Of a DNA stretch of 37,946 nt, positions 6,155-37,946 are shown piece by piece (positions within the stretch are counted from its first letter, which is position 1; every line of letters starts with the position of its first letter). The notes below the pieces were generated by a model. It did no database searches and was not told the origin of the DNA. It saw only the letters and a program-made list of their open reading frames with translations. The stretch spans positions 1 through 37,946 of IMG/VR virus record IMGVR_UViG_3300044993_000409. One strand, 5' to 3'. Origin of the DNA: a virus. A program made the position numbers and the translations under genes.

Positions 6155-6165
6155 GGAGACGCGAC

Positions 6166-9600: not shown

Positions 9601-12600
9601 ATGATGATCTTTTGTTCTCGCGGCGTGGCGGTCGCGAGCGCGTTGGCGAACGCCGTGCGGGGGGCGACGTACTCGCCGCTGCCGAAGAGGTAGTTCTGGG
9701 TGGCGACGATGTCGCCCGGGGTGACCGTGTTGGGTTCCCCGGTCGCCGGCCTGCTGAGGAACAGGGTGGTGTCGTCGGCTCCCATTTCGCCGATGGTGTT
9801 TCGCTCCATCGGCAGGCGGGCTACTCCGGAGGCGCCGGGCCGAGGCTTGGGCCGGTCGGCAGGTCCAACGGCGGCGGTTCTTGTGGCGAAGAGGGTTCCT
9901 GCGTCGCCGGCGTCGGAGCGCCGTAAATCCGCCTCAACTTCTCTTTGAGCCTCCTCAATGATCTGTCGAGTCTCCTCCGGCGTGAGTCCGGCGACTCGGG
10001 CTTCTTGCTGGACATCGTAAACCTCCTTCATCGCCCCGAAGAGCGCGCCTTCCCGCTTGTCCACCCCGAGCGTCCGCGCGGCCATTTCCGCCACGTCCGG
10101 GTTCTCTTCGCGGAACATCCCCGTCTGGGATTCCCGCAACTCGTTGACGAACCTGTTCATCCGGTCGCGGAACTGCGCCGGGTAGTTGCCGTACCGGACA
10201 ATGAACTCCAAGAGCATGTTCGAGGCGTCCACGTCCACCATGGACTCGCCGGTGAGCGTCTTTTGCCGCAGTTCCTGATCCAACTTGGCTTTGCGTTTCG
10301 CCCACGCCGCTTCGCGTTGGGACGTTTCGACGGCCGGGAACAGTTCGATCCGGCTTTCGGCAATGGCCTTGAAAGCCTCGTGCATCTGCGGGACGGGGCT
10401 GCCGTAGGGGAAGTCCCGCTTGATCTTGATGAGGGCCATTGTGGCCCCTTCCAGCCCCTGCATGAGCCGGGCGTTGCCGATGCTTTTGGCGTCCTCCACC
10501 GCTTCCACGGGCATGGCCTTGGTGAGGAGCATGGACTGGACGATTTCCTTGCCGGTCTCGGTCAGCATCCGGTCGGGGCCTTCGAGGAACAGCTTGGACC
10601 GCATGGTCTCGGGGACTCGCTCCCACAGCGCCCTGCGGTACGCCCTGCCGGTGTTCTTGTCGGACACGATCTCGGAGAACGTCCTACCGGAGTCGAGTTT
10701 GAGGGCGTTGAGGATGGAGTCGTCGATGAGGTTGCCGAGCGACGCCCCCGCCCGCGCGGGCGACTGCTCCTGCGTGGACGAGACGTTCCCCACGTCGGCG
10801 AACATTCTGGCCTGCCACGATGACGGGGACATTTCGACCACCCGGACCAGCGCCGGGTTGCGGAACGCGGCCACCTCGTCCGGCTTGAAGCCGAATTGCT
10901 CGGCCGACTCGATCAGCAGCTTGCGATACTCGTCGTACTTGCCCGAATGCAGGGCCATTTTGAGCGCGATCAACCGGCCGTTGCCGTTGATGGCGGTCCC
11001 GTCTTCGGTCACCGACGGCGGCCCGCTCGTCGCGTCCGGGTTGGTGTTGATCATGTACTCGGGGATGAGGTCATCCGCGATGCGCATGATCTTGGCCTGC
11101 TCGTTGGCGTCCGTGTCGTAGTTGCGCGGCTGAAGTCCTTTCGGGTGGCCCGGACGCGGCCTGATGATGCCGTAGGCCGGGGCCTCGTGGGAGGCGTGAA
11201 CGTCGTCCAGTTCGCGGATTTCAAACCGCCCCTTGACCCTGCGCATTTCCTTCTTGGGCGTGACGATTTGCGTCTCCGCGCCGATCAGCCGTGGGCCGGA
11301 GAAGGTGGTTTGCGCTTCGGACCCGGTCGGTTGTGGGCCGGACTGGTCCGGTTGGCCGGCCCGGCCGCCCGCCAGAGCGTCTGCGTACTTCTGCGCTTGG
11401 CTTTCCACAAGTCCGCCTGGGGCGAAGCGGATGTTGTCCTTGGCCCGCGCGGCCCGCCACGCGGCTTCGGTGGGGTATTTGGCGACCTCCGCCTCGATTT
11501 TCTGGAGCAGCCCGGCAACGTCCTGTTTCAGGCCGGTCCGGATTCGTTCTGCGTCCAACGCGGCGATCAGGTCGGCCCGTGCCGCGTCAACGGCCGTTCG
11601 TTGGGCCGGCAAGGCGTTCTGGTCCGCGTCGAACGGCTCCGTCCGCTGGGCCGGCCGCTCCTGCTTTTCCTGATCCACCCGTGGCACGTCCTCGCGCTCG
11701 GGCTGGAAAAGCTCCGGCTGCTGCTTCTGCACATCGACCTTCGGCCGCTCCGGCGGTGGCGGCTCGACCGGCCTGGCATACGCTTCCCGCACCTGGTCCG
11801 CCAGCGCCTTGATCTGCTCGTCCGGCAGAACCTTCCGCAACTCCTCCAACGCCTTTCTCGGCGTCTTGGCCTTGATCCCCAACGCCGCACTCAGCGCCAA
11901 CGCCTGCTCGTCGGTCAATCCCGAGAATGGCGTTTGCTCTTGCGCAATTTGCGCAGGACGCGTTTGGCGCTCTTCGGCGGGTCTCAGGCCGTCTTCGGGC
12001 ACCCGAGGCGGTTTAAGGGCCTTTTTTGTCTGCGGAACGGCCTTCTGCGCGGCTCCGTAGCGTTCCTCGGTGATCCGGATGAGGTCGTCGATGCTGGGCG
12101 GGAGTTCGACGGCGGTTGTCTGGGCCGGTTCGGCGGTGGTTGGTTCCAGTCCGACGGCGGGCCGGGGCGGGGGCTGTTCGGTCGGGAACGCTTCCGGGGC
12201 CGGGACGGCCGTGTCCGGGGGAGGCGGTGTCCCTTCGGCGGCGATCTTGGCTTCGGGCAGTTCGATGGGCGGGGGGTTGTCCCGGACGATGAGTTTGGAT
12301 TCCTGCTGGAACAGCCTCTCCAGCAGCGTGAGCGGCCGACGGGGCGGTCGCGGAGGGGCCTCCATCGGGACCTCGGCCGGCCGGGGCGGCGTCGGTTCGG
12401 CCGTCGTCTGGGCCAGCGCCTGCCGGTAGGTCGCTTCGCTCGGCTCCACGCTCACTTCCCGGCCGCGCAGCCGGGGCGGCGTGGTTTTCAGCCCGTCTAA
12501 CCGACCGCCCCGAACGCCAACGAGGTCGTAGGCTCTGGGAACGCTGACCGAGCCGGTGTCCGGCGGCGTTTCCGGGCCACGCAGCGGCTGGATGATCTCC

Positions 12601-13838: not shown

Positions 13839-13845
13839 CTCGCCC

Positions 13846-15132
13846 TCACGGCGCAAAGCCTGCGCCAAAACTTCTCGCCCGGTCCATGAGTTCGCGGTCC
13901 CTTGCCTTGTCCTGACGCCGCCGCAACTCCGCCTCGATCATCCGACGCCGCGCTTCAATCTTTTCCGCCGTCTTGAACGTCTCCCCGACCGTCAGCGGCT
14001 GCGGTTTCGGTCCTTGCAGCCGTGGAATCAGTCGCGGCCGCTCCCGAAGCTCCTTGGCCGCCTTGGTGTTGGGGTACTGCTCAAGAATCTGCCGCGTCAA
14101 CTGTTCCGCGCCACGGGCCGTGGTTTCCTGCGGGTTCAGCCGGCCCCGCTCGATCAGGGCGTCCAACTGATCCAGCAGCCCCTTGGCCGCGTACTCGTCC
14201 GGCCCGCCGGCGGCCTGAATTTCCGCTTCTTGCCGTTGCCGCTCCGCCATGTCCGCCTGCATCCGATCGTAAATCTCGACCGCGGCGGCAGGGCTTGCCA
14301 CGTCTCCCTTTCTGGCGGCTTCGATCTCGGCAAGCGTCTTGGCCTGCTTCCACAACTGATCGGTGGTCGGCGTGCCGCTGCTCGACGTGCCGCGACGGCG
14401 GTCCACCGGGACCAGCAGGCCGTCCTTGTTGAGTTGGTACTTCACCCCGTCAATGGTGACGAGGAACCGCTGGACAGCTTCCGTGTTGATGCCGCGTTCG
14501 GCGTTCAGCAGGGCGTTCATTTTCGCCCGCTGATCCATCATCTGCTGTTCGGCCAGCTTCTGCTTCCGCGCCCGGTCCACGGCCTGACGGGCTTGCAGCA
14601 GGACCGTGCCGCCGTTGATGTAGCCGAGAAGCTCGTCGGCCTCGCGTTGGGACAGTTCCCCCGCCGCCAACTGCCGCTCGACGAAGGCCCGCGCGGCGTG
14701 CATCTGCTGGAGCCGGTTGGCGTCCGCCTGAGTGAAGTCGGGCGACCGCATCCGCTGCGAAATCTCCAGCGCCGCTTGCAGTTCCCAATCTTCCTTCGGC
14801 CCCCGAGTCGCCTGCTGCGCGTAGATCAGCGCCCGTCGCTCGGCCGCCCGCTCGGCCGGCGACAGCCGAGGGTTGTCCACGTCGAAGTTGAAAATGTACG
14901 GCCCTTGCCTTCGGGGCGCAGGTTTGGCGGGTTGCTGCGGCCGCTGTTCCTGCCGGAGGGGAGGCAGAGGACGTTCGTCCACGTCCTCCGGGGCCATCAT
15001 ACTCGGCGGGATGACGTAATCGTCCTCAGGGAGCGGCTCGTCGTCGAGGACCGGATCGGCCACGCCGAACCCGTAGTCGAGGTCCTCTTGCGGGAAAAGA
15101 TCGTCGTCGTCCGCGTAGTCGAACTCGTCCAT
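13846..15132 (-). CDS. Coiled-coil internal virion protein (hypothetical)
   Basis: 428 residues, with ATG 15132 and ribosome site GAGGA. Residues 1-50 are very acidic (many Asp, Glu, Tyr), followed by a Pro/Gln/Arg linker. From about 85 onward the protein is long charged helices rich in Ala, Glu, Arg and Gln, with heptad-like patterns, and no cysteine cluster or enzymatic motif. It lies nine bases after the upstream gene and its TGA is seven bases before the giant protein's ATG, with that gene's ribosome site between. By position it matches the internal core or ejection proteins encoded ahead of the largest virion protein in T7-like phages; this is inferred from order, not from sequence. Confidence 0.75.
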   Translation of the reverse strand: MDEFDYADDDDLFPQEDLDYGFGVADPVLDDEPLPEDDYVIPPSMMAPEDVDERPLPPLRQEQRPQQPAKPAPRRQGPYIFNFDVDNPRLSPAERAAERRALIYAQQATRGPKEDWELQAALEISQRMRSPDFTQADANRLQQMHAARAFVERQLAAGELSQREADELLGYINGGTVLLQARQAVDRARKQKLAEQQMMDQRAKMNALLNAERGINTEAVQRFLVTIDGVKYQLNKDGLLVPVDRRRGTSSSGTPTTDQLWKQAKTLAEIEAARKGDVASPAAAVEIYDRMQADMAERQRQEAEIQAAGGPDEYAAKGLLDQLDALIERGRLNPQETTARGAEQLTRQILEQYPNTKAAKELRERPRLIPRLQGPKPQPLTVGETFKTAEKIEARRRMIEAELRRRQDKARDRELMDRARSFGAGFAP

Positions 15133-15141: not shown

Positions 15142-16005
15142 TCAGGCGTAGTCGCGGCCGCCGTCGATAGTAAACTCACGCGGCAGCATGGGAAGATCAT
15201 ACGGATAATCCGGCACCCAGTCGTCGTCCTCGCCCTGTGTCCCACCGTCCTGTGTCCCACCGGTCGGCGGGTTCAAGATCAGAATCTGCGGACCGCCGCC
15301 GCCCGAACCGCTTGAACCTCGTGAACCTCCTGAGCCGCCTATCGCGCCCTGTCTCACCCCCAGCCCGGCGGGCCAGCCGCCACGCGGCGGGTCGTCGATG
15401 GGACGCCTCCAGTCCTTGAAGGGCGGGGCCTTTTGAATCCCCCCGCCTCCGCCACCGCTTACGGGGAACCACCGCCATTGTGGCTTGTTGCGGTCTTCCC
15501 GGTTCAGGTCGAATTGGCGGCGTTCTTCCGCCAGCCGCTCTATCGCCATCGCAAGGGAGGACATGTCCGAGAACGACGGGACCGGGTCCTGATAGCTGCC
15601 CTGATAACGCAGCGTGTCGCCACGCAACCCGGCGATGGCCTGCATCCGCCGCACGGCAATGTCGTTGTTGAGCCGGGTCAAATCCCGACGATACCGGTCA
15701 CCCACCCCCTGCCGGAGCGAGTCCGAGATTGTCGTGTTGCTCAGCCCGCGCGAAATCGCCGACTGCTGGGTCCGCGCCGTCTCCTGCGTGTAGTAGTCCG
15801 TCAGATCCCGAAGCTGGTTCTGCCCCATCTGATCCAGATCACGCAACACGTCCTGCTCGCGCATCTGGTAGGCCGCCAACGTCTGCTCGTACCGCGCCCG
15901 GTTCGCCGCCACCGCGTTCGCGTACTGCTGCTGGTAGTTGGACAACAACGACCCGAGCGCCCCGCCTTGCCGGTTGGCCGCCGGCGCCGAAAACTTCGCG
16001 AACAT
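15142..16005 (-). CDS. Structural protein with coiled-coil N-terminus and Gly-rich C-terminus
   Basis: 287 residues, with ATG 16005 and a near-ideal AGGAGGG site overlapping the upstream TAG stop. Residues about 20-140 form a long Gln/Arg/Ala helix containing 'ISRGLSNTTISDSLRQGV' and 'LTRLNNDIAVRRMQ', a combination I associate with virion coiled-coil proteins. The C-terminal 110 residues are Gly/Pro/Ser-rich with an exact internal peptide repeat (GGTQDGGTQ), caused by a 14-bp tandem DNA repeat at about 15234-15262. An internal virion or tail-adaptor role is inferred from position between fibre and core genes. Confidence 0.75.
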   Translation of the reverse strand: MFAKFSAPAANRQGGALGSLLSNYQQQYANAVAANRARYEQTLAAYQMREQDVLRDLDQMGQNQLRDLTDYYTQETARTQQSAISRGLSNTTISDSLRQGVGDRYRRDLTRLNNDIAVRRMQAIAGLRGDTLRYQGSYQDPVPSFSDMSSLAMAIERLAEERRQFDLNREDRNKPQWRWFPVSGGGGGGIQKAPPFKDWRRPIDDPPRGGWPAGLGVRQGAIGGSGGSRGSSGSGGGGPQILILNPPTGGTQDGGTQGEDDDWVPDYPYDLPMLPREFTIDGGRDYA

Positions 16006-16017
16006 GCCATCACCCTC

Positions 16018-17022
16018 CTAAGCCGCCGTGTCATTGTCCAGGTAAAACGCCGGCATCCCGCCTACCCACGTCCCCTGCGCCTGCAACGTCGCCGCCGGGG
16101 CCGGCAGCGCCCCGCCCGTGACAGGGAACTGGAACAGGTACGTTCCAATATACCCGGCCGACGCCAGCAGGTTGCCCGGCAAACTCCCCGGCGCCGTCGC
16201 AATCTGCCCGTCCGTCGCCCCGGTCGTCGTCCCGACGCAACCCACCCCAGCCGTAGTTCCCGCCGCGTTGACCGAACACGCAACGAAATACGGCGTACCC
16301 GCCGTGAGCGTGATCCCGCCGGCGTCCACCGATCCCCACGTCGCAGCCGCCGTGTTAAAGCTCAACTCGCCCGTGAGCCGGGCCAAATCCGACAGCCGGT
16401 ACAGAGCCACCCGGTACACGCCCGTCGTCGCCCCCACCCCGTACCACCGGATGCGGTTGACCGTGATCGTCGCCGGTGGCAGCACCAGAGAACAGCGGGC
16501 AATCGACGTGCTGATGTTGTTCGGCGTCGCCGCCACGTTCCCGCTCCGCATGTACAACGCGGTCTGCATCGTCGGGTCCGCGACAAACGAGCCGATCACC
16601 TTCGTGGCCCACGCCGGAACCACCGGCTGCCACGACAAATCCCCGCGCAGGAACGTAGTCGCGTTCGCCGTCCCCGTCCCCAAATCCGCCGCCGCCAACG
16701 ACCGGAACGCCGGCGTCGCCGCCCCGCCACTCGCCGGCCCCGCAAACACCTTGTTGGCCGCCTGATTCGCAAACCCCAAGCCCGCGGGACTCAGGTTGAG
16801 CGCAGACGTGTTCAGGTCGATCCGCAACCCGCCCGAATACTCCAGCCCCGACGGAGACGCCAGCGACGGCCGCAGGTCGTAACCCCCCAGCCCCGTCTTC
16901 GCCACCGTGCCCGTGGCGATCAGCGAGTTCAACACCTCCCGCACCCGATCACAAAACCGCCGCACCCGCGTCGGATCGGCCGCGTCCGTCACCCGGGGAA
17001 TCCACTCATTCTCGACCGCCAT
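16018..17022 (-). CDS. Tail-fibre-like structural protein
   Basis: 334 residues. ATG 17022 is chosen over the in-frame GTG 17025 because a GTGGGGG site lies six bases upstream. The segment 'NKVFAGPASGGAATPAFR' with 'LAAADLG' is a common phage fibre repeat linking shaft to tip. The following 190 residues are beta-rich (Thr, Gly, Val, Ala) without cysteine clusters, fitting a jelly-roll receptor-binding head. The N-terminal 40 residues are a basic helix that may attach to the tail. It is the first gene after promoter element 17047-17083 and so may be expressed separately from upstream virion genes. Confidence 0.7.
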   Translation of the reverse strand: MAVENEWIPRVTDAADPTRVRRFCDRVREVLNSLIATGTVAKTGLGGYDLRPSLASPSGLEYSGGLRIDLNTSALNLSPAGLGFANQAANKVFAGPASGGAATPAFRSLAAADLGTGTANATTFLRGDLSWQPVVPAWATKVIGSFVADPTMQTALYMRSGNVAATPNNISTSIARCSLVLPPATITVNRIRWYGVGATTGVYRVALYRLSDLARLTGELSFNTAAATWGSVDAGGITLTAGTPYFVACSVNAAGTTAGVGCVGTTTGATDGQIATAPGSLPGNLLASAGYIGTYLFQFPVTGGALPAPAATLQAQGTWVGGMPAFYLDNDTAA

Positions 17023-17046
17023 CACAAACCCCCACGCCGCCGGTCA

Positions 17047-17083
17047 ATTATGAGCAAAATCTCATAATGTTTCATATGAAACA
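17047..17083 (-). promoter_or_regulatory. Leftward promoter embedded in two abutting palindromes (copy 1)
   Basis: Two palindromes abut: ATTATGAG-N6-CTCATAAT (17047-17068) and TGTTTCATATGAAACA (17068-17083). On the minus strand this gives ATGAAA (17070-17075) - 17 bases - CATAAT (17047-17052), a sigma-70-like promoter. Predicted transcription starts near 17040, only about 18 bases before the fibre gene's ATG. The -35 lies in one palindrome and the -10 in the other, so a dimeric repressor on either would block polymerase. A near-identical copy lies at 35548-35584. The remaining bases of the gap (17023-17106) show nothing else. Confidence 0.7.
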
Positions 17084-17106
17084 AAACGCACGAAACGGCC
17101 GCTTAA

Positions 17107-20100
17107 CTACACGGTCGGGGCGGCGGCCTTGTACGGGTGGTTCATGGGCAGGTTGCCTTGCAGCCCGTACTTCCAGGCCAGGTAGCCTTCCATCAAGGCT
17201 GCGTCGGCGGCGCTCAGGTACTCGTTGATGAACGCGACTTCGGCGATGTCGCATTGCAGGAACCCCTGCCCCTGATAGCGGCCGAGGTAGAACAGGCCGG
17301 ACACCAACGACGTGTTGCCCGAGGCGGCCGTGACCTCCGTGCCGCCGTTGACCTTGACGCCGATCATTCCGGCGCCGTGCCGGCTGGTGTACAGCGTCCA
17401 GACGTTGAGCGTTCCGGGGGCCTCCGCCGTGTCCGCGTTCCCGTCCCAGTTGTACGCCACCGCCGCGCCGGTGTTCTTCTGCAACAGCGCCGCGAACCCG
17501 CCCGCGTCCGTCCAGAACCCCTTCGTCAGATTGCTCACGTTGGAGGCGCCCTTGGCGACGATGAACGCATGGTATGCCGACGCGGTGATGTAGGCGCTGA
17601 TCGGCAGCCCGGCGAAGTAGTCGTCCACCCCGTCGAACCGCAGCGCCGATTTCCCGTTGACCTCGTTCTTCTCCAGCGACGGCCACGGGGCGTTCGACAC
17701 GTTCTCGTTGAACAGCGTCCCGCCGGCCGAACCGTAGTTGGCCAGTTCGCTCACCTTGTCCCCGTCGTTGAAGAAGTCGTCCAGGTCCGACGCGAACGCC
17801 CACAACGTGAGCCGCGAACCCAACAGGTCCGGCGTCCACAGCGTCCCCGGCGTCGGCGTCGGATCGACCGGGGCCGTGTCGTCCGACATGACCGGAGCCG
17901 GCGAACGGTAGAAAACCCGCTGCGCCGTCTTCGGCAGCGTCTCGATCACCGCCAACATGCTGTCCAACGACCACAGCTTCTCCAGCGCCGACGAATGGAG
18001 CCGGATGTACATGGCGTGACCGCGCACCCGCGCGGGCTGGGAATAGTTCCGGCCGGCGATGAACGTCCCGTCAAACGAGCTAGGGTTGTGACTCGCCGCT
18101 TCCGCGCTCTCGCCGACATGCACCGAAAAATCCACGTCGGACGAGTTCTGCCACAACGTGCATTGCAGGTCTTGCATCCGAAACGCATTCCCGCCCCTCT
18201 GCACCAGACTCAGGTACACCTCGCTCTGAATCGCGACCCCGTCGTCGCTCTTGGCCGTGTCCGACCACTCCCGGATGAACCCGTCCCGGCCACCCATCAG
18301 GATCACCCGGTCGTCCGGGGCGTCCCCGTCAAACAGGTACACCGCCATCGGGTTGTGAACCGTGTTCGCGAACTCGTCCGGCCACCACGAAAACGCCCCG
18401 CCTTGGGCCGTCGCCGGCTGAAACACCTCCCGGCCCTCGTCGAACCAGTAGTGCGTCGTCGCCTCCGACGCCGCCAGCGGGGTGATGAACAGGTGGCACC
18501 CCTCCTTCTCGTCGTCCCACACCATGCGGACGATGTGCTTCGACAGGTCCACGTCCATGAGCCGGTCGTTGATCGGAGCCGACACCAGCGTCGGCTTGGC
18601 CCCCGGCCGCATCCGGTACACCCCGCCCCGCTGGCCGAAGAAGTACAACGTCCCGTCCGGAGCCACCGTCCACGCCCGACCCCACGCGCCTCCCACCACG
18701 GCCGAGATCAGGTCGAACCGGCCCCCCTCCGCCGGGTCGCCCGTCATCTGCCAGACCGAATGGTCGCACAGGAAGATCAACAGGTCGTCCGACAGCGGCA
18801 CGATCCCGTTCACCACGTCCGGACACTTGCCCGCCGGCGCGTTCGCCCCCGCCACCGCCTGCGTCGCCAACGGCACAGCCGGGTTGTAATCGAAGTTCCC
18901 CGGGTCGAAGACGGCCGACATGAACCAGTTCTGCCGGTCACCCTCCAAACCCGCCAGAACCAGCCGACCCCGCCACGTCTCAATCAGCGTGCATTTCCGC
19001 CCGCTCGATGACGCCGGCAGACTCCCCGCCGTCGCCGTCAGCGTCCCCGAAACGTTCTTCTCCCCGTCGTACGTGCGGTAGTTCGTCCCGTCGGCGAAGT
19101 ACAACTTCCCGCCCAACACGGTCGAGAACACCACCGGCGCCGACCCGTCGCAGAAGTTCGTCGCCAGCACGGACCGCGCCGAACGGTTGAACTGGTACAA
19201 CGTCCCGCCCGCCACCGCAACCTTGCGGTGAATCCGCGTCGGCCGCGACGCCGAACCGTAAGGAGCCAGATTGTCGCCCGTGCATTGCAGCCACAGGAAG
19301 TCCGTCGTCACCCCACGGTTCGTCTGCGCCGTCCAGTTCGTCGTCACCCCGTTGACCGTCAGCGAAATGAGGTCCGTGTTCCCGGCCGCCACCGACCGCC
19401 GCAACCGCATCGACCCCAACCCGTCCGCGCACACCGCGTCCCACGCGACGTTCGACGGCTTGGCCCGGTTGACAAGCACGCCGTCCACCGCCCCAAACCG
19501 CTGGTACGAGTCGTCCGCCGTCGCCCCCGTCACGTTCGGGAATATCGCGTTGCCCACCACGCAGATGGAGAACGTCGTCGGCTCGTAAGCGATGTCCCGC
19601 GCCCCCGAGGTCGTCGAGGTCACCGCGCCCGCCGTCCCGAACGCCGCCACCAACGTCCCCGACCAGTCCACCTTCATCAGCTTGTTGACGCCTGCCCCGG
19701 ATGCGTTCGTCAGCACGTAGTAGTTCCCACCCTGATCGGCCACCACCCGCGCCTGATACGAAACGAACGGGTCTTGCAACGTCGTCTCGCTCGTCACTTG
19801 CCCCGTCGCCGCGTTGATTAGCTGCAACAGCAGCTTGTTGTCCTTGCCGCCCACCACGCCGACCAGCGACCCGCCAATCGCCATGCACTGGTACGCCCGC
19901 GTCGGCGTCGCCGTCGCGCTGACCAGCCCGCCGTTCGTGTCGATCCACGGACCCGGGTCCAGCCGCGCCCCGTTGCCCGCCGAGAATCGGTAAATCCCCG
20001 GCGCCGTCGCGTCCACGACCCAGACGTAAACCACGTTGTCCAGCGCGCCCAGCCCCCACAGCTTCAGGCCCGAGCCGGTCCCGGTCGCCGTCATGTCCAC

Positions 20101-20550
20101 GCTCCAGACGGCCGAGCCGGTCGAACTGATCTTCCGCACCCGGATTAAACCGGTCCCCACGGATGCGACGTAAAAGGCGCCCGCGTTGTCGATGCACGCC
20201 AGACTTTGATTGCCCGCCAACGCCGTCGGCACCGCCGTCGCCCCGCCCGTCGTCGCGTCGCGGATGTCCAGCGCCGTCCCCGTCGATCCCGTCGTCAGCA
20301 TGTCGCCCTTGGGCGTAATCTGGCTCCGCGACACCACCACGGCGTTGATGTCCTGCACCGAATGGCCGCCCATGCTCTGCGGGCAGTGCTTGACCAGCCC
20401 CGGACGCCGCGAACCCTGCCGCCGACCCGTCCGCCCGTTGAACGGACGCACGTTCACTACCTGCGGCGTCGTCATCCGCCGCTGAGCCGCAAACGCCCCG
20501 GACACGTCCAGTCCGCCGAACGGGAAACTCACGCTGATGTAGTCCGCCAC
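17107..20550 (-). CDS. Tail tubular protein B-like (nozzle) protein with C-terminal lectin-type domain
   Basis: 1,147 residues from GTG 20550. The N-terminus has the phage nozzle pattern: a short beta segment, 'VNVRPFNGRTGRRQGSRRPG', then about 750 residues of repeated Gly/Thr/Trp beta blades ('WVVDATAPGIYRFS', 'GVVGGKDNKLLL', 'APDGTLYFFGQRGGVYRM'), consistent with a beta-propeller. After a Pro/Thr linker at about 885-900, the last 240 residues form a LamG/concanavalin-like domain ending 'ALMEGYLAWKYGLQ' and 'HPYK', a signature I associate with lectin-like domains in planctomycete and phage proteins. This is longer than T7 gp12 (about 790), explained by the added lectin domain, which may bind host glycans. 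It lies seven bases after the upstream stop. Confidence 0.82.
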   Translation of the reverse strand: MADYISVSFPFGGLDVSGAFAAQRRMTTPQVVNVRPFNGRTGRRQGSRRPGLVKHCPQSMGGHSVQDINAVVVSRSQITPKGDMLTTGSTGTALDIRDATTGGATAVPTALAGNQSLACIDNAGAFYVASVGTGLIRVRKISSTGSAVWSVDMTATGTGSGLKLWGLGALDNVVYVWVVDATAPGIYRFSAGNGARLDPGPWIDTNGGLVSATATPTRAYQCMAIGGSLVGVVGGKDNKLLLQLINAATGQVTSETTLQDPFVSYQARVVADQGGNYYVLTNASGAGVNKLMKVDWSGTLVAAFGTAGAVTSTTSGARDIAYEPTTFSICVVGNAIFPNVTGATADDSYQRFGAVDGVLVNRAKPSNVAWDAVCADGLGSMRLRRSVAAGNTDLISLTVNGVTTNWTAQTNRGVTTDFLWLQCTGDNLAPYGSASRPTRIHRKVAVAGGTLYQFNRSARSVLATNFCDGSAPVVFSTVLGGKLYFADGTNYRTYDGEKNVSGTLTATAGSLPASSSGRKCTLIETWRGRLVLAGLEGDRQNWFMSAVFDPGNFDYNPAVPLATQAVAGANAPAGKCPDVVNGIVPLSDDLLIFLCDHSVWQMTGDPAEGGRFDLISAVVGGAWGRAWTVAPDGTLYFFGQRGGVYRMRPGAKPTLVSAPINDRLMDVDLSKHIVRMVWDDEKEGCHLFITPLAASEATTHYWFDEGREVFQPATAQGGAFSWWPDEFANTVHNPMAVYLFDGDAPDDRVILMGGRDGFIREWSDTAKSDDGVAIQSEVYLSLVQRGGNAFRMQDLQCTLWQNSSDVDFSVHVGESAEAASHNPSSFDGTFIAGRNYSQPARVRGHAMYIRLHSSALEKLWSLDSMLAVIETLPKTAQRVFYRSPAPVMSDDTAPVDPTPTPGTLWTPDLLGSRLTLWAFASDLDDFFNDGDKVSELANYGSAGGTLFNENVSNAPWPSLEKNEVNGKSALRFDGVDDYFAGLPISAYITASAYHAFIVAKGASNVSNLTKGFWTDAGGFAALLQKNTGAAVAYNWDGNADTAEAPGTLNVWTLYTSRHGAGMIGVKVNGGTEVTAASGNTSLVSGLFYLGRYQGQGFLQCDIAEVAFINEYLSAADAALMEGYLAWKYGLQGNLPMNHPYKAAAPTV

Positions 20551-31095: not shown

Positions 31096-32890
31096 TCTGC
31101 TCCCCCTCCGGCGCGCCGCCAACGTCCGCGCCAAACATCCTCGCCACCGAATCCCTCGCCGTACTCTGGCTGTCCCGCGTACTCACGCTCCGCCGGATCA
31201 CCTCCTTCGGCTCTCCCGTCTCCACCCGCGCGCCGCTCAGGTCCAACGGCTCCGGCCGCATGACCTCCATCTGCTGCAACAACTCCGGCAAATCCGGCTG
31301 GTCCTCGTACTCCGCGATCTTCTTGAGCAGGTAGCTCGGGTCGAGCGACAAACCGTACTGCTGGAACAGCGGGGCCAGCGGCGTATAGACCTGCATGACG
31401 AACTCCTTGAGCCGACGCGACCGCGACTCCGGCGTGGACGCAGACAACGAGTACGGGTCCACGCGGATCGTCGGAACCGGACCCGTCCGCGTCAACTCCC
31501 CCGCCGCCAGCCGCGCCACGCTCTCCACGCTCGACGGGTCGTACCCCCCCAGCCGCCGCGTCATCCGCGCCTCCGGAACCCCCGGAACCGCGTAATCCAC
31601 CTCCATCATCTTGTCCGGGTGGTTCCACCACAACCACACCAGCTTCTCCCCCACCGACTTGGTCCGCTGCAACACCACCGACTGCATGTCCGAAATGCCC
31701 ACGCTCGCGTTCTCGTTCAGCAACGCCTCCTGCCGCGCCGTGCCCGACTGCGGACTCCGACCGCCCATCAACTCCAGATTCCCGCCCACAAAGCTGAACA
31801 GGCTCTTCCACAACTCCGCGAACCCGTTCAATGGCTGCGAAATCTTGGCCCCGAACACCGCCTCCGACACGCTCCCGGGGTCCGACACCGCCACCACGTC
31901 CCCGTTTCTGGCCGCCACGATCCGGTCCGCGTCGTCCACGTTCGTGGACCGCACCAGCCCCACATGCTTCATGTCCACCGTCACGTCCACCAGCTTGCGG
32001 TACGCCACGTTCGCCGCCTCGTGGATCAGCCGCAAATCGCTCATGGGCGCCTTCGGCATCAGATTGTCCGCCACCAGACCGAAATCCCAAAAATCGTACA
32101 TCCCCGACGGCGGACCAACGTACTCCCTCTCCTCCAACGCCTTCCCGTCCTCCGTCAGGTCCGGGCCGCCCATCGCGGAGCTTGAAAACACGTAAACGAC
32201 CTTGTGCCGAGGAACGTAAATCTCCCACAGGCAACTCATGTCCTCGAAGTCTTCCTGCTGCGGGAACTCGCCCTCCGAAATCGACCGCGCCCTCGCGTCC
32301 CCCTCCGCGTTGAACGAACTCGGCCGCGTGACCGGCACCTTCCGGCCGTACACGTCTTCCGCCATCCTCGTCGGCATCCAGAACCGGTGCCCCACGTACC
32401 GACACTCGCTCAGCCGCCGCGCCCCCGTCTCGAACACCACGTCGTCCAGACTCACCCGGCTCACGATCGCGTCACCGGCCTGCACCCGAAACCCCGTCCG
32501 CTCCGCGTCCGCCGGCGAAGCGATGCACGTCTTCGTGATCCCCACGCAAGCGAGCGCGTCGTACACCACCTCCATGAGCGTCCGGGCCAGGCCGATGTCC
32601 TCCACCCACTGGCTCAACCACGCCTGACAGACCGAAACGTGCGCCCGCATGGCCCGGTCGTGCGTCGTCAGCATGAACCGTGGCGCCTTCGGAATCAACT
32701 GCCGGCCCACGATGCTCTGATACATCGACAGCAGGTTCACCGGGTCCCGCTTGACGTTCAGCCGCCGGCCGTAGTGATAACCGGCGATGATGCTCGCCAA
32801 CTCCGCCGCGTTCATCCGGAACGGCGTGAGCCACTGCCGGTCGTATCGCACGCACCGGACCAGCCGCTCCAGATCGACTTCGTACTTCAT
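31085..32890 (-). CDS. Portal (head-tail connector) protein
   Basis: 601 residues from ATG 32890, overlapping the terminase stop (ATGA) with GGGAG just upstream. Size and order (directly after TerL, before capsid genes) are those of podovirus portals. Recognisable portal-like features are the helical, Arg-rich start ('LERLVRCVRYDRQW'), 'NLLSMYQSIVGRQL', beta wing segments ('WEIYVPRHKVVYVF'), a long stem-helix region 'NVAYRKLVDVTVDMKHVGLV' and the C-terminal 'FQQYGLSLDPSYLLKKIAEY' segment with an acidic tail. No catalytic motif is expected. Confidence 0.8.
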   Translation of the reverse strand: MKYEVDLERLVRCVRYDRQWLTPFRMNAAELASIIAGYHYGRRLNVKRDPVNLLSMYQSIVGRQLIPKAPRFMLTTHDRAMRAHVSVCQAWLSQWVEDIGLARTLMEVVYDALACVGITKTCIASPADAERTGFRVQAGDAIVSRVSLDDVVFETGARRLSECRYVGHRFWMPTRMAEDVYGRKVPVTRPSSFNAEGDARARSISEGEFPQQEDFEDMSCLWEIYVPRHKVVYVFSSSAMGGPDLTEDGKALEEREYVGPPSGMYDFWDFGLVADNLMPKAPMSDLRLIHEAANVAYRKLVDVTVDMKHVGLVRSTNVDDADRIVAARNGDVVAVSDPGSVSEAVFGAKISQPLNGFAELWKSLFSFVGGNLELMGGRSPQSGTARQEALLNENASVGISDMQSVVLQRTKSVGEKLVWLWWNHPDKMMEVDYAVPGVPEARMTRRLGGYDPSSVESVARLAAGELTRTGPVPTIRVDPYSLSASTPESRSRRLKEFVMQVYTPLAPLFQQYGLSLDPSYLLKKIAEYEDQPDLPELLQQMEVMRPEPLDLSGARVETGEPKEVIRRSVSTRDSQSTARDSVARMFGADVGGAPEGEQNAF

Positions 32891-34707
32891 GGCTCCCACC
32901 TGTCACGCGACGGAACCGCCGCCAACGCCCGCCGACCTTCCAGCGTCATAATACTGGCCGCACGCTCCACCTTCCGCTCCGGCTTCTTCGTCAACCCCAT
33001 CGAAAGGCACGTCTTGTACGCCAACGCCGCCGCAATTACCCGGTCCGCGTGGTTGAGCCGCGCCCCGGACGGGTCGTTCACGCTCCTCTGGTTCGCGTTC
33101 TCCACCGTCCCCTGCTGCGTCCACCGGAAGTTCAGCGTCTCGTCCAAAGTCAACTCGCTCAGCGACACCACCTCCCCCGTCGCCAAACCCCTCTGAAAGT
33201 CCGCCAACAACCCCACGATCCCCTGCTGCGTCGGGTTCCACCCCGGCTCCGAAGACCGCTCCATCTTGTAACTCAACGGGTTCCTGTTCTGCTCGTAGTA
33301 ACAGTTCTCGTAACCCACGTCCCCCAGCCGCTCGTAAAACTTGCTCCCGGCCCCCTGCTTTTCCCAGCACATGAGCGCCGGCCGACCGTCCGCCGTGCAG
33401 CACAGCCGGCCCAACGCCGCGCAGAACTCCGCGAACTCCCTCGGCTCGATGTTCGGGTCCGCGTACTCCGCCACCACCAGACCCGAGTCCGCGTCCATGA
33501 CCGCCGCGCAACTGTTCGTACTCCCCGTCCCCAACGCCACGTCCACCCCCATCCCGTACCGCCCGTACGGCATCCGTCCGTTCTCCGGCATCTTCCACAA
33601 CCGCAACGGACCGCCATCCGCCTGAATAAGCCGGATCGCACGTCCCGTGGACGAGTCCACGAACAAATACCCCTCCCACACCGGGTCACGACACCGGTCC
33701 TTGGCCGCCTGAACCAACACCTCGTTGAAGAACTTGACGCTCGAACCCCGAGGGTCGATGTCCAAATCCATCGCCACCGCACGAGGCGTCCCCTTCCGCA
33801 CGCACTCCAGATCGTACCACGGACTCCGTATCCCCGGAAACGGACCACCCGTCGGACTCCCCGTCGTCACAAACTCGTAATCCGGCGGAAAGTTGTACTT
33901 GGTGTCCAGAATCTCGTACCCGCCCGGAAAACTCCGGTACAACCCCGCCCGCTTGACCGGATGCTGACTCCAATGCACCGTCAGCTTCCGAATCTCCGGC
34001 GTGTTGTGCGTCAACTGGTAAAACTCCGTGTCCGTCCCCAAATGCGTGCCGTTAAAGAACCGCGTACTCGCCGTGTCAGACGTTCGCTGCCGGATCAAAT
34101 GACCCTCCCGGATCAGCGGAAACTCGTCCACGAACACAATCGTCGCCCGTCCACCCACACCCGCACGACCCGTCGCCGCCTCCCCCGTCACCACCGAACC
34201 CGTCTTCTCATACCCCACGTACATCTTCCGCCGCGTAATCCGCCCCCGCAGCCAACCCGGCAACCTCTCGTGCATGAAGTCCAGCTTCCAAAACAAACTG
34301 TTCGGACTCGGATCGTCCACCGCGTCCGCCGTCTTACTAACAAACAACGCCTGAAAATTGCTCTGGAACAACGCACAATAATCCGACACGATCAGAAACA
34401 ACCACGTAATCCCCATCTCCTTGCTCTTCTGACACACCAAATCCGTCCCGGACTCGATGCTCTCCAGCATGGCCCGCACCGCGTCGTACTGGTAGTCCCA
34501 GCAAATCCACGGCTCCACCCGGTGCACCCCACGCTTCCGAGGGTTAAACTGCCACACAAACGTGTTGATGTAGAAGAAAACGTCCCTCTCACAGGCGTGC
34601 AACAACGCAGCCTGCACCGCCCCATCCCCCTCCGCCGCCCTCAACACCCTCCGCCGCCACCGCAGATTCCCCTCCAAATCCGTAGGTATCTCCCGGTAAT
34701 ACTCCAC
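32887..34707 (-). CDS. terL: Terminase large subunit
   Basis: 606 residues. GTG 34707 is preferred because AGAGGG lies seven bases upstream; TTG 34713 (overlapping the previous stop) and GTG 34749 are alternatives. The ATPase has a deviant Walker A 'CQKSKEMGITW' (92-102), as in many TerL proteins, and Walker B 'VFVDE' with the catalytic Glu (191-195). The nuclease half shows an Asp in 'GMGVDVALGTGSTNS' (D388 region), a second acidic stretch near 'MCWEKQG' and a late Asp in 'NHADRVIAAALAYK', fitting an RNase H-like fold. It translocates and cuts phage DNA during packaging. Confidence 0.92.
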   Translation of the reverse strand: MEYYREIPTDLEGNLRWRRRVLRAAEGDGAVQAALLHACERDVFFYINTFVWQFNPRKRGVHRVEPWICWDYQYDAVRAMLESIESGTDLVCQKSKEMGITWLFLIVSDYCALFQSNFQALFVSKTADAVDDPSPNSLFWKLDFMHERLPGWLRGRITRRKMYVGYEKTGSVVTGEAATGRAGVGGRATIVFVDEFPLIREGHLIRQRTSDTASTRFFNGTHLGTDTEFYQLTHNTPEIRKLTVHWSQHPVKRAGLYRSFPGGYEILDTKYNFPPDYEFVTTGSPTGGPFPGIRSPWYDLECVRKGTPRAVAMDLDIDPRGSSVKFFNEVLVQAAKDRCRDPVWEGYLFVDSSTGRAIRLIQADGGPLRLWKMPENGRMPYGRYGMGVDVALGTGSTNSCAAVMDADSGLVVAEYADPNIEPREFAEFCAALGRLCCTADGRPALMCWEKQGAGSKFYERLGDVGYENCYYEQNRNPLSYKMERSSEPGWNPTQQGIVGLLADFQRGLATGEVVSLSELTLDETLNFRWTQQGTVENANQRSVNDPSGARLNHADRVIAAALAYKTCLSMGLTKKPERKVERAASIMTLEGRRALAAVPSRDRWEP

Positions 34708-34709
34708 GC

Positions 34710-34925
34710 TCAATCCCTCTTGGGAGCCTCCGGATGCGGTATCCGCCACATCGCGTTCCCGCTCCGCCTCACCTCCGAACTGTCCACGTGAATGATCTCC
34801 CCCGTCTCATACAACGCCACCACCCAAATCGTGTTGATCGAGGGACCGTAATCAATCAAAAACAACGCATCACCGTCCCCCCTCGGCGTCCGCACCCATA
34901 TCTCCGGCATTATCCGATGAATCAT
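34710..34925 (-). CDS. 71-residue hypothetical protein upstream of TerL
   Basis: The start is ATG 34925 (or 34928 or 34910); GGGAG lies directly upstream and the gene overlaps the end of the preceding gene. The product is a compact beta protein: 'MPEIWVRTPRGDGDALFLID', 'NTIWVVALYETGEIIHVDSS', with a conserved-looking Gly-Asp-Gly. The stop (TGA 34710-34712) is coupled to the terminase start region. No family recognised. Confidence 0.65.
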   Translation of the reverse strand: MIHRIMPEIWVRTPRGDGDALFLIDYGPSINTIWVVALYETGEIIHVDSSEVRRSGNAMWRIPHPEAPKRD

Positions 34926-35262
34926 CATCTCCCAACAACCTCCTGATAATCTCCTCCACCATCCTCTCACCCATCCCGTCCGCTACACCCTCCCCCACCT
35001 TGGCCCGCAATTCCAAAACCTTCCGCTCCTCCCACTTACGCCGCGTCTCCAGATGCTCAAACTCCATCTTCTCCCACTGAGACAGAAACTTACCCGGGTC
35101 CTTCTCAAATACCACCCGCAACTGCACGTCCACCGCGTCCCGCCAATCCCCACCACCCATCGCCACCCGCCGCATCCTCGCCAACAACGCCGACGGCACA
35201 CGAGCCTCCCCCTCCAACCGCTCCTCCACTATCCTTGCTATGTCCTCACGAGTTAACTCCAT
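34870..35262 (-). CDS. Small-terminase-like or regulatory helical protein
   Basis: 130 residues. ATG 35262 has GGGGGG about six bases upstream; an in-frame extension to 35475 is antisense to the zinc-ribbon gene and was excluded. The product is all helical: 'ELTREDIARIVEERLEGEA', 'KFLSQWEKMEFEHLETRRKW' (coiled coil), 'ERMVEEIIRRLLGD' and an acidic tail. Gene order (before TerL) and the helical, coiled-coil character suggest a small terminase or packaging cofactor, but no clear HTH is seen. It is the first gene of the minus-strand virion operon. Confidence 0.6.
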   Translation of the reverse strand: MELTREDIARIVEERLEGEARVPSALLARMRRVAMGGGDWRDAVDVQLRVVFEKDPGKFLSQWEKMEFEHLETRRKWEERKVLELRAKVGEGVADGMGERMVEEIIRRLLGDDDSSDNAGDMGADAEGGR

Positions 35263-35500
35263 GCCACGCCCCCCAGTCACCTGCAAAAAATGCTTCTTCA
35301 CCTGGATACCACGCACCGACCGCCCAAAACAATGCCGAAAATGCAGAACCCGCACCTGGGACCAACCCGCCTCCATAACCCCTCGCGCACACTCCCTCTC
35401 CAAACTCCCCTGCCACCTCTGCCAACGACTCGGCCCCACACACGACTGCCCACTCTGCATGTCACTCAATTTCACCCTAGCAAAATCCGTACCAACGTAA
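35261..35500 (+). CDS. Double zinc-ribbon protein, divergent from and sharing its start site with the virion operon
   Basis: 79 residues from ATG 35261. Two CxxC...CxxC modules are visible: 'TCKKCFFTWIPRTDRPKQC' continuing RKC and 'TRTWD', and 'CHLCQRLGPTHDCPLC'. The first has the familiar small zinc-finger style (aromatic after the first pair, Pro-Arg, then CxxC and Trp-Asp). Four regularly spaced cysteine pairs are unlikely by chance, which is why I accept the plus strand here. The ribosome site is weak (GAG eight bases upstream). The ATG overlaps, on the opposite strand, the ATG of the minus-strand gene at 35262. DNA-binding regulation of the adjacent promoter is a testable guess. Confidence 0.65.
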   Translation: MPRPPVTCKKCFFTWIPRTDRPKQCRKCRTRTWDQPASITPRAHSLSKLPCHLCQRLGPTHDCPLCMSLNFTLAKSVPT

Positions 35501-35547
35501 AATTTTGCCCCCGACCCTCACTTTTCTAGCTAGTTTTTCGCACCTAG

Positions 35548-35584
35548 TGTTTCATTTGAAACATTATGAGAATGTGCTCATAAT
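35548..35584 (+). promoter_or_regulatory. Rightward promoter embedded in two abutting palindromes (copy 2)
   Basis: TGTTTCATTTGAAACA (35548-35563, one mismatched centre pair) abuts ATTATGAG-N6-CTCATAAT (35563-35584). On the plus strand this reads TTGAAA (35556-35561) - 17 bases - CATAAT (35579-35584), each hexamer five of six to the sigma-70 consensus, predicting a start near 35591. An extra half-site TGAAACA lies at 35595-35601. The element matches the 17047-17083 copy at 34 of 37 positions but faces the other way. The T in the -35 (A in copy 1) predicts a stronger promoter here. Confidence 0.72.
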
Positions 35585-35754
35585 TTCCGAAGCGTGAAAC
35601 ACCACCCCCCAAAGGCCAAAACCACGGGAAGGACAAGGGGGAGGGGGAGACCGGAAAAACCGGACGAGGGGGGTTAAGTCCTACGCACACGTGCAGGGGA
35701 CCCCCCGGGGTCTGGTTCGCCCGGCGGGCGTGCGGGCGGGCGGGGGCCCCCCCT

Positions 35755-35778
35755 CGCGCGCGCGCGCGCGTGCGTGCG
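35755..35778. repeat. Alternating CG/TG tract, Z-DNA-prone
   Basis: Eight CG dinucleotides in a row (35755-35770) followed by TGCGTGCG give 24 strictly alternating pyrimidine-purine bases. Such tracts are known to favour left-handed DNA under negative supercoiling. It is directly flanked by runs of C and G. Confidence 0.8.
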
Positions 35779-35856
35779 GGCGCGCCCTCCCCCCAAGGGA
35801 CCGCGCGCGGGCCTGCAGGCGAGCAGGCGAGCCGGCGGACGAGCGATGACGCCGAT

Positions 35857-35897
35857 GGCAAGCTAGGCAAGCTGGGCCGAGTTTGCCGGTTTTGCCG
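35857..35897. repeat. Iteron-like cluster of 9-base repeats
   Basis: GGCAAGCT occurs at 35857-35864 and 35866-35873 (9-base period). TTTGCCG occurs at 35882-35888 and 35891-35897 (again 9-base period). GGCAA and TTGCC are inverted relatives, so the cluster contains two direct copies on each arm. Such spacing resembles iterons for a replication initiator or repeated operator half-sites. A neighbouring GCAGGCGA tandem pair lies at about 35815-35830. Confidence 0.55.
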
Positions 35898-36037
35898 ATT
35901 GTGCGGGCGCGCCGGCGAGGGGACGCGAAAAAATCCGCGCGGTCGGGTTGCCGGCGAGCCGAGCCGTGCTCAGAATGGCTACGTCGACGCCATGAGCGCC
36001 GTCACCGCCCCGGCGGGATCCGGGAGAGGATCACATC

Positions 36038-36259
36038 ATGAAAGTCTCCGAAGCAATTGGCCACGTCTACGGCGCCCTCGCCGGCGATGCCGACAACGAC
36101 CGCGACCGCGTCGCCCTCGCCCGCCAGCGGATGCGGGACGTGGCCGACGCCATCGCCGACGTGCGGCGCGTGCTTGACATCGGCATGGATGCGCGAGACG
36201 CCGAGGCGCTGAGGGGCGCGGTCCGCCTCGCCCTCGCACTGCTCGCCGAGGGGCGCTGA
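36038..36259 (+). CDS. Small helical protein, first of the hairpin-separated array
   Basis: 73 residues, with ATG 36038 and GGGAGAGG upstream. It is entirely helical and Ala/Asp/Arg-rich ('DRVALARQRMRDVADAIADV', 'ALRGAVRLALALLAEG'), with heptad-like spacing that could support a dimer or helical bundle. It lies about 447 bases downstream of the predicted start of the rightward promoter and is followed by a GC-rich hairpin and a CTCA repeat. No family recognised. Confidence 0.6.
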   Translation: MKVSEAIGHVYGALAGDADNDRDRVALARQRMRDVADAIADVRRVLDIGMDARDAEALRGAVRLALALLAEGR

Positions 36260-36269
36260 CCGTTTCCGT

Positions 36270-36304
36270 CCCGCCCTCGGGCGCCGTGCCTGCGGGCGGG
36301 TTTT
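36270..36304 (+). terminator. Array hairpin 1
   Basis: CCCGCCC (36270-36276) pairs with GGGCGGG (36294-36300) around a 17-base loop that has some internal pairing, followed by TTTT. It starts 11 bases after the stop codon. The 3' arm GCGGGCGGG plus T-run is shared with the next hairpins. Confidence 0.55.
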
Positions 36305-36328
36305 CTCACTCACTCACTCACTCACTCA
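36305..36328 (+). repeat. Tetranucleotide repeat (CTCA)6 upstream of a ribosome site
   Basis: Six exact CTCA units lie between hairpin 1 and the GGAGGG site of the next gene. Length change by strand slippage would alter the hairpin-to-ribosome-site distance but not the reading frame. A degenerate echo (ATCACTCACCCACC) lies at the equivalent place before the 36611 gene. Confidence 0.9.
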
Positions 36329-36343
36329 CCGGAGGGACGCAAG

Positions 36344-36529
36344 ATGATCTACACCCGCATGGGGTCGCCTGTCAGGGTTGTGGCGGCCGGCGACGATGGG
36401 GTCGTCCTGGTGGAGTACCAGGAAGACGGCGACACACGCGAAGTCCATGTGGGCGATCTGCGGGCCGACGGCGGCGCGGCCGAGATCGATGAGGCCATCG
36501 CCGGCGCCATCCACGCCGGGCGTGGCTAG
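36344..36529 (+). CDS. 61-residue small beta protein
   Basis: ATG 36344 with GGAGGG upstream. The sequence suggests a small beta barrel: 'YTRMGSPVRVVAAGDDGVVL', 'VEYQEDGDTREVHVGDLRAD', ending in a short helix 'EIDEAIAGAIHA'. The style is similar to SH3/KOW-like or DUF-type small proteins found in phages. No catalytic residue pattern. It sits between array hairpins 1 and 2. Confidence 0.65.
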   Translation: MIYTRMGSPVRVVAAGDDGVVLVEYQEDGDTREVHVGDLRADGGAAEIDEAIAGAIHAGRG

Positions 36530-36547
36530 TGTGACAGACCCCATTGC

Positions 36548-36575
36548 ACCCGCCCGCCTGGTGCGGGCGGGTTTC
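36548..36575 (+). terminator. Array hairpin 2
   Basis: A perfect 10-bp stem ACCCGCCCGC/GCGGGCGGGT with 5-base loop CTGGT (36548-36572) followed by TTCC. It begins 19 bases after the stop. No canonical promoter is seen between it and the next ribosome site (CGGAGG before 36611). Confidence 0.6.
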
Positions 36576-36610
36576 CTCAACCCATCACTCACCCACCAAC
36601 GGAGGCTGAC

Positions 36611-37069
36611 ATGACCAACACCCTAACCACCCTCACCCCTGCCCGCGTGCGCGAGATTCTCGCGCTCGCAGCCGTCCACAAAGCGATTGACGATGAAGAC
36701 CAAGGCGCGGCGCGGCTCTGCCCAGAGGCTGTGTTGGCCATGCACGGCCGGTTCATTGCTCGCTATGTGACCGAACTGTCAGACGACGAACGCGCCGAGG
36801 TGGCTGCGCTCTCACCCGCGGCCGGACGGCGCGCCCTGCGTCGCGCGGCGCGTCAAGACCCTCTTGCCGCGCTCGAGCACTGCCCGCGGGCGTTGTCGCT
36901 CGCGGCGCGCAGCCGGGCGGCGCTGCAAAATCCGAAGCTAGGCATTGCCCGTTCCCACTGGCTGGATTGTCGCACGATCCGCCGGCTCGCGCGACTGGCG
37001 CCGGACGCATGGAAGCAGCGTCTAGCGGAGCTGCGGGCGGCGCTGCCCGCCGACCGTCTGGCCGACTGA
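36611..37069 (+). CDS. 152-residue helical hypothetical protein
   Basis: ATG 36611 with CGGAGG upstream. It is helical, rich in Ala, Arg and Leu ('VREILALAAVHKAIDDEDQG', 'RRALRRAARQDPLAALEHC', 'LAPDAWKQRLAELRAAL'). Three cysteines are scattered and no zinc pattern is seen. The basic helices could bind nucleic acid. No family recognised. It is the third gene in the hairpin-separated array. Confidence 0.62.
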   Translation: MTNTLTTLTPARVREILALAAVHKAIDDEDQGAARLCPEAVLAMHGRFIARYVTELSDDERAEVAALSPAAGRRALRRAARQDPLAALEHCPRALSLAARSRAALQNPKLGIARSHWLDCRTIRRLARLAPDAWKQRLAELRAALPADRLAD

Positions 37070-37079
37070 CACACACTTC

Positions 37080-37109
37080 CCCTCGCCCGCACCGTGCGGG
37101 CGAGGGTTT
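37080..37109 (+). terminator. Array hairpin 3
   Basis: A perfect 12-bp stem CCCTCGCCCGCA/TGCGGGCGAGGG with a 3-base loop CCG (37080-37106) followed by TTT; the strongest of the set. Only 38 bases separate it from the next ATG at 37145, too few for a full promoter plus leader, so the next gene must be transcribed through this hairpin. Confidence 0.65.
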
Positions 37110-37144
37110 CCTTCCCTGATTGCACCAACACTGAGGACTCACCA

Positions 37145-37360
37145 ATGGCAACCAGCTTTCACGTCACCTGCTACGGCGCGTACGGCCGGCGATTGCCCTC
37201 CGACCTGGAGGGGTACTGCCACCTGCGAGCCCGCGACTGGGCCGATGCGCCCATGGCATTTCATGTGACCCGCGACCGCGCCCGTGAGCTGGCGCGCGAG
37301 GCACGGCGGGCGGTCCGACGGGCCGAACGCGCCCTCGCTCGATGGCGCAACGGAAACTGA
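37145..37360 (+). CDS. 71-residue hypothetical protein
   Basis: ATG 37145 with GAGGA upstream. The N-terminal half looks beta-like and aromatic ('SFHVTCYGAYGRRLPSDLEG'). The C-terminal half is a long Arg-rich helix ('RARELAREARRAVRRAERAL'). Strong positive charge is consistent with nucleic-acid or membrane-surface binding. No family recognised. Confidence 0.6.
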   Translation: MATSFHVTCYGAYGRRLPSDLEGYCHLRARDWADAPMAFHVTRDRARELAREARRAVRRAERALARWRNGN

Positions 37361-37367
37361 CACACTC

Positions 37368-37397
37368 CCCCCGTCCGCACGGCGCGGGCGGGGGTTT
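37368..37397 (+). terminator. Array hairpin 4
   Basis: An 11-bp stem (37368-37378 with 37384-37394, one G-T pair), loop ACGGC, followed by TTTAAT. It starts eight bases after the stop codon. The 3' arm again reads GCGGGCGGGGG then T. Confidence 0.6.
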
Positions 37398-37436
37398 AAT
37401 CAACGCCGGCACGCCGGCACGGGGAGGAGACCAATC

Positions 37437-37886
37437 ATGTCCGAAACAACCCGCGCAGCCCAACTGTTCCACCTGGAACACACAGACACCGTCCTGATCC
37501 GCGCCCGCAAGCGAGCGGACGGCGGGTTCAGCCCTGCCAAGGGCGGGCAGCACGTCTTTAAGTGCAACACCCGGCACACGTTGCGTCAGCGATGTGACAT
37601 CGTGACGCGGGCGCTCACCATCATGCACCACGACGCCAACGCATCGCCGGCGCTGATCGTGGTCGCGATCGAGCAAAAAGGCGAGTGGGAAGTCCTCGGC
37701 GCCATCTGCGAGCGGGGGGACTGGCCGACGTTCGCGCCGCGTGATGAGCTGCGCAAGACTAACGCCTACAATGAGGCCGTTCTCATCGCGGCGGAGCACC
37801 TCGACCGCATCGTCACGATCTTGCAGGAAGACTTTGACCGCGTCCTTCTCACGGACGGCGTCGATATTACGGTACATTCCTCTTGA
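37437..37886 (+). CDS. 149-residue hypothetical protein
   Basis: ATG 37437 with GGGGAGGAG upstream. Mixed alpha/beta: 'HTDTVLIRARKRADGGFSP', 'ASPALIVVAIEQKGEWEVLG', 'YNEAVLIAAEHLDRIVTILQ', ending 'LLTDGVDITVHSS'. It contains several His residues in 'ALTIMHHDAN' but no recognised catalytic set. Soluble, no signal peptide. It is the last complete gene of the array. Confidence 0.65.
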   Translation: MSETTRAAQLFHLEHTDTVLIRARKRADGGFSPAKGGQHVFKCNTRHTLRQRCDIVTRALTIMHHDANASPALIVVAIEQKGEWEVLGAICERGDWPTFAPRDELRKTNAYNEAVLIAAEHLDRIVTILQEDFDRVLLTDGVDITVHSS

Positions 37887-37893
37887 CCAATGC

Positions 37894-37946
37894 GGCAGCG
37901 GCTTCCAGCCCGCTGCCACTTCCCCTCGCCCGCATGGTGCGGGCGG
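37894..37946 (+). terminator. Array hairpins 5 (complete stem plus truncated copy at window end)
   Basis: An 8-bp stem GGCAGCGG/CCGCTGCC (37894-37901, 37910-37917) lies directly after the stop. Then CGCCCGCA-TGG-TGCGGGCG (37927-37945) begins another copy of the array hairpin with the same core as hairpin 3. The window ends inside it. Confidence 0.5.

Follow-up and report, generated by a model that had tools for sequence, protein, structure and literature searches.

Which protein reads a 38-nt AT-rich element that stands twice in a GC-rich phage sequence, and what does the element do there? The window (the whole 37,946-nt stretch analyzed here) is a linear IMG/VR virus record, and the contig is probably incomplete, since the longest records of its relatives are mostly 46 to 52 kb. 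A leftward structural unit extends from a small gene (34870-35475) and the terminase (32887-34749) down to 6672, where a leftward open reading frame (ORF) of 2398 codons occupies 6672-13868; rightward genes are found at 36038-37886 and 2-6285. Three Planctomycetota MAGs and at least 80 viral contigs contain relatives of the terminase, no relatives of the major capsid protein were confirmed, and we infer a Planctomycetota host for the phage. The features that bear on the element are as follows.

482-1279, plus strand: ParB-like protein, with a ParB N-domain and HTH followed by a CxxC...CxxC stretch; phrog_1033
17047-17068, no strand: palindrome B of copy 1, ATTATGAGCAAAATCTCATAAT
17047-17075, minus strand (leftward): weaker sigma70-like promoter of copy 1, ATGAAA-N17-CATAAT
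17068-17083, no strand: palindrome A of copy 1, TGTTTCATATGAAACA
32887-34749, minus strand: terminase large subunit, by its match to phrog_5989 (E value, 1e-8) and its relatives
34870-35475, minus strand: small gene before the large terminase, in a possible terS position; weak matches to the small genes of L006, L007, and L018 (E value, ∼0.01)
35548-35563, no strand: palindrome A of copy 2, TGTTTCATTTGAAACA, parS-type, sharing 14 of 16 bases with TGTTTCACGTGAAACA
35556-35584, plus strand (rightward): sigma70-like promoter of copy 2, TTGAAA-N17-CATAAT
35563-35584, no strand: palindrome B of copy 2, ATTATGAGAATGTGCTCATAAT, that is, ATTATGAG-AATGTG-CTCATAAT
35593-35601, minus strand: extra perfect parS half-site, CGTGAAACA on the plus strand and TGTTTCACG on the minus strand, at approximately +2 to +10 of the predicted start
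36038-36259, 36344-36529, 36611-37069, 37145-37360, and 37437-37886, plus strand: small rightward ORFs with GC-rich hairpins between them

The element at 35548-35585 (plus strand; copy 2) combines a 16-bp palindrome A (TGTTTCAT-WTGAAACA), a 22-bp palindrome B (ATTATGAG-N6-CTCATAAT), and the sigma70-like sequence TTGAAA-N17-CATAAT. A first-pass annotation had placed both palindromes and the promoter hexamers at 35548-35584 and had proposed a second copy 18.5 kb away, with three differences, and a TGAAACA half-site just past the predicted start. We found all of these: the other copy, here copy 1, occupies 17046-17083 on the minus strand, and the half-site, the fifth of its kind, lies at 35595-35601, where its extended form CGTGAAACA matches one half of canonical parS perfectly. 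Across the 38 nt, the copies depart from each other only at positions 9, 25, and 27, all of which fall in the center of palindrome A or the loop of palindrome B (probability by chance, ∼0.7%). The arms of both palindromes are unchanged, and the likeness ends at the element boundaries. At 24% GC, the copies contain the AT-richest 37-mers of a window that is 66% GC. Four of the five AT-rich perfect palindromes in the window (arm of at least 7, gap of at most 6) belong to the two copies, compared to 1.1 expected in all, and TGTTTCA occurs seven times (1.9 expected), five of them within the two elements. The whole composite element had no exact match elsewhere in viral_contigs or genome_contigs, and it is not present in L002, the first relative at 39% identity.

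The predicted promoter is interlocked with both palindromes. In copy 2, the −35 hexamer is the right half of palindrome A and the −10 hexamer is the right arm of palindrome B, so that a protein bound at either would exclude RNA polymerase. The hexamers match sigma70 at 10 of 12 positions in copy 2 and at 9 of 12 in copy 1, with a spacer of 17 in both. Copy 2 is the sole sigma70-like site in 34750-37946 (0.4 expected in shuffles), as is copy 1 in 16000-18500 (0.2 expected). Copy 1 lies between two leftward ORFs (17107-20550 and 16018-17025, both on the minus strand); copy 2 sits in a divergent gap, pointing right, 73 bp upstream of the small gene at 34870-35475 (minus strand). The plus-strand ORFs at 36038-37886 are the unit that copy 2 would transcribe, and the leader, put at about 450 bases in the first-pass annotation, would be ∼447 nt long from the predicted start to the first plausible gene (36038). 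The hairpins between these small ORFs (36286-37946) are alike and GC-rich, and one, at 37080-37106, scored as a terminator. Reading the element as a composite promoter-operator fits the sequence well but had missed the parS-type identity of palindrome A. The A-to-T change in the −35 hexamer is real, but it falls in the center of palindrome A, and only the arms are conserved between the copies; the stronger −35 that it was taken to give copy 2 may therefore be incidental.

Palindrome A matches the parS consensus TGTTTCACGTGAAACA at 14 of 16 bases, both arms (TGTTTCA/TGAAACA) are exact, and copy 1 is a perfect 16-bp dyad. It retains bases G1 and A6, which set parS apart from the Noc site (PMC7383237). 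The two central bases are TA in copy 1 and TT in copy 2, compared to CG in canonical parS. We searched 149 Planctomycetota genomes and found TGTTTCANNTGAAACA in 31 of them, most sites being canonical, and the reversed control in none. Copy 1, TGTTTCATATGAAACA, is letter for letter the same as bacterial oriC-region sites in two of these genomes, beside dnaA in G188 and beside dnaN in G258. In G188, two such sites flank one TGTTTCATGTGAAACA just before dnaA-dnaN-gyrB (genes assigned by Pfam); in G258 it occurs with TGTTTCACATGAAACA upstream of dnaN (called by likeness to the G188 protein). GWF2_50_10 carries TGTTTCATGTGAAACA 280 bp upstream of parB. TA centers are rare in Planctomycetota (three sites, in two of the genomes searched); as natural sites of the oriC region, they show that a CG center is not absolute. 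The copy 2 word, TGTTTCATTTGAAACA, which is a single base pair removed from that of copy 1, was found once, in G136, at a gene start whose context is not oriC-like. On this evidence, palindrome A looks like a parS-type centromere palindrome of the host's kind. Another Planctomycetota genome, G220, has 13 canonical sites on ten contigs, far above its relatives.

Similar sites occur at the same place in two distant relatives: in both, a parS stands close upstream of the small gene before terL, a perfect one in L028 and one with a single mismatch in L049. Shuffles yielded no parS at one mismatch or fewer. The small genes of L028 and L049 form one family that adjoins terL across many relatives; that of the window has no homology to the L028 gene (E value, 15), so the synteny is one of position. 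Sites near terL are confined to these two of the terminase relatives' records, and a listing of palindromes upstream of terL in all relatives revealed no general palindrome besides parS in L028 and L049. More broadly, the parS-like pattern was present in at least 120 viral contigs, compared to 19 for a reversed control pattern. Among the matches listed, 60 of 120 lay outside ORFs of at least 100 amino acids, compared to 1 of 19 for the control; TA centers were not enriched (6 of 120 among the matches listed, five of them inside ORFs of at least 100 amino acids). Only 3 of 44 viral records with parS-like sites encode ParB_N, and the genes flanking the sites are phage genes, most often terminase. 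Viral contigs are enriched in intergenic parS sites that are unaccompanied by a ParB gene.

The phage itself encodes a ParB-like protein (482-1279); a GroES-like gene (1286-1597) and a helicase gene (1594-3135) come next. No relative of this protein was found in any viral contig, and only weak local matches appeared, in G005 and G007. No ParA was found among the genes scanned on this probably incomplete contig, as a phage-encoded ParABS system would include. In chromosomal ParB, R173 reads G1, and a glycine, G201, faces base pair 6; Noc, which reads a different base there, carries an arginine instead (PMC7383237). When aligned to Noc, the phage protein has a proline at the R173 position, and it is therefore not expected to read parS canonically, which favors the host ParB. 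We accordingly disfavor the phage protein as a canonical parS reader and keep it as a candidate, though not a favored one, for binding palindrome A. The likeliest candidate for its reader is the host's chromosomal ParB.

Palindrome B had no exact match in the 149 Planctomycetota genomes and no match within three mismatches at the relatives' loci. It is most simply a putative operator, and its regulator would be either a phage protein or one absent from this contig. The first-pass annotation had supposed that one regulator could coordinate both distant units; this is unlikely, because A and B bear no relation to each other, and A is of host type by appearance whereas B has no exact match in those Planctomycetota genomes. 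A dif/Xer reading of palindrome B was rejected on inspection, the half-sites being oriented the wrong way.

Our preferred reading, to which we give close to an even chance, is that the phage has a promoter whose −35 hexamer lies in a parS-type ParB site, probably read by the host's ParB, with palindrome B, which takes in the spacer and the −10 hexamer, serving another, putative regulator. The parS-type palindrome beneath the promoter suggests that the partition protein ParB helps control it. ParB on palindrome A would cover the −35 hexamer and the start region and turn the promoter off, and the half-site at +2 to +10 would aid it at copy 2. The promoter would then be freed once replicating phage genomes titrate ParB, or once ParB loses its activity late in infection. 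Transcription from copy 2 would enter the rightward unit next to the terminase cluster, and transcription from copy 1 would enter gene 16018-17025 and those beyond. Counting against this reading are the TA and TT centers, which are uncommon, the small number of relatives' records (two) with parS near terL, its absence upstream of terL in cultured relatives of a second terminase clade, and the ParB-like HTH protein of the phage itself.

Known systems resemble parts of this arrangement. Chromosomal parS of ParABS has the same 7-base arms and 14 of the 16 bases, and copy 1 occurs as such in two Planctomycetota genomes; the phage site differs in its TA or TT center, in lying within a promoter, and in having no recognized parA nearby. 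KorB of RK2 is a ParB-type transcription regulator that acts from a specific DNA site, and P1 is a phage with a ParABS system, encoding its cognate ParA and ParB and having its own site sequences. We know of no second palindrome over the −10 at the parS3 and parS4 promoters of Pseudomonas aeruginosa. At those promoters parS likewise adjoins the promoter and ParB represses it, lowering its activity (PMC5521831), but they belong to chromosomal genes near oriC rather than to a phage. By analogy, ParB may hold the phage promoter down until it is titrated. P. aeruginosa ParB also binds GTTTCAC half-sites, and removal of 25 half-sites produced little general change in local transcription (PMC10419367). 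VirB of Shigella is a ParB-fold protein that controls promoters from a specific DNA site (PMC10770331); the sites of KorB and VirB differ from the TGTTTCA arms, and in both cases the protein comes from the same element. The ParABS systems of actinobacteriophages provide phage-borne centromere-like sites (PMC7157519) but include cognate ParA and ParB and their own site sequences, whereas the window site is of the host chromosomal type.

The main rival to host ParB control of the promoter, which we consider improbable but weightier than the others, is that palindrome A acts as a genuine parS, for use as a centromere or for loading, and borrows the host's ParB-ParA-SMC machinery to place, condense, or segregate phage DNA, in a plasmid prophage or an infection center, with the promoter overlap secondary. 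In its favor are the match of copy 1 to sites of the oriC region, the two sites 18.5 kb apart in the window, and viral parS sites without ParB, up to five per contig (L116 and L159). It does not readily explain the exact overlap with the −35 hexamer in both copies; moreover, the sites lie within or beside transcription units, and no plasmid-maintenance gene was recognized in the window. Distinctly improbable, too, is that both palindromes are operators of phage regulators, one perhaps the 482-1279 protein, and that A resembles parS through convergence or through a common ancestry of ParB-type DNA reading. The phage does encode a ParB-like HTH protein, palindrome B looks phage-specific, and A and B are kept together in both copies. 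Against this stand the proline at the R173 position, the letter-for-letter agreement of copy 1 with bacterial sites of the oriC region, and the relatives with canonical parS (G027 and G037 records), which have no ParB_N match.

We regard two further readings as very improbable. The first-pass annotation had itself raised the chance that the palindromes serve as RNA hairpins or terminators. Palindrome B could form an 8-bp hairpin, and copy 2 with the extra half-site gives a good RNA fold (z, −4.0), but the outer helix is missing from copy 1 (z, −1.1), so this fold is not kept. The stem is AU-rich rather than the GC-rich hairpin of an intrinsic terminator and no T-run follows it, palindrome A is nearly loopless, and the terminator scan called neither copy. 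Rfam and tRNA searches returned no matches. The other reading is that of a recently duplicated AT-rich piece with an accidental likeness to parS and a promoter. In its favor, there are just two copies and the host is itself an inferred one; however, the confinement of every difference to centers or loop and the parS sites of L028 and L049 at the same place already make this unlikely.

ParB is known for chromosome segregation. If ParB acts at phage promoters or packaging genes, infection would be controlled in part by host segregation, and there would be an explanation for the many parS sites in phages that have no ParB gene. It is possible, although doubtful, that phages of several clades have host-type parS at promoters close to the terminase but encode no ParB, using the host ParB as a transcription switch or a packaging and segregation cue, and that in the window this site has been joined to both a promoter and an operator of the phage. 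We found no paper describing host-type parS in phages without ParB in a literature search of incomplete coverage. A second terminase family includes 26 parS contigs, of which 10 had a site within 300 bp of terL, compared to 2.4 expected (P = 2.5e-5, an optimistic value because family members are partly related). The parS sites of L119, L132, L136, L205, L130, L154, L104, L191, L159, and L101 in this family range from the start of the terL frame to ∼250 bp upstream, and their flanks are otherwise different. Five canonical parS sites lie within ∼1 kb beside the terminase in L116 (2657-3444) and L159 (10535-11462), and the phi29-like L107, which has a capsid protein match, carries three parS-like sites (5525, 5551, and 12130); none of these records has a ParB_N match. 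Cultured relatives of the second terminase clade have no parS upstream of terL; one of them, HTVC027P, has a one-mismatch site ∼4 kb upstream of the gene.
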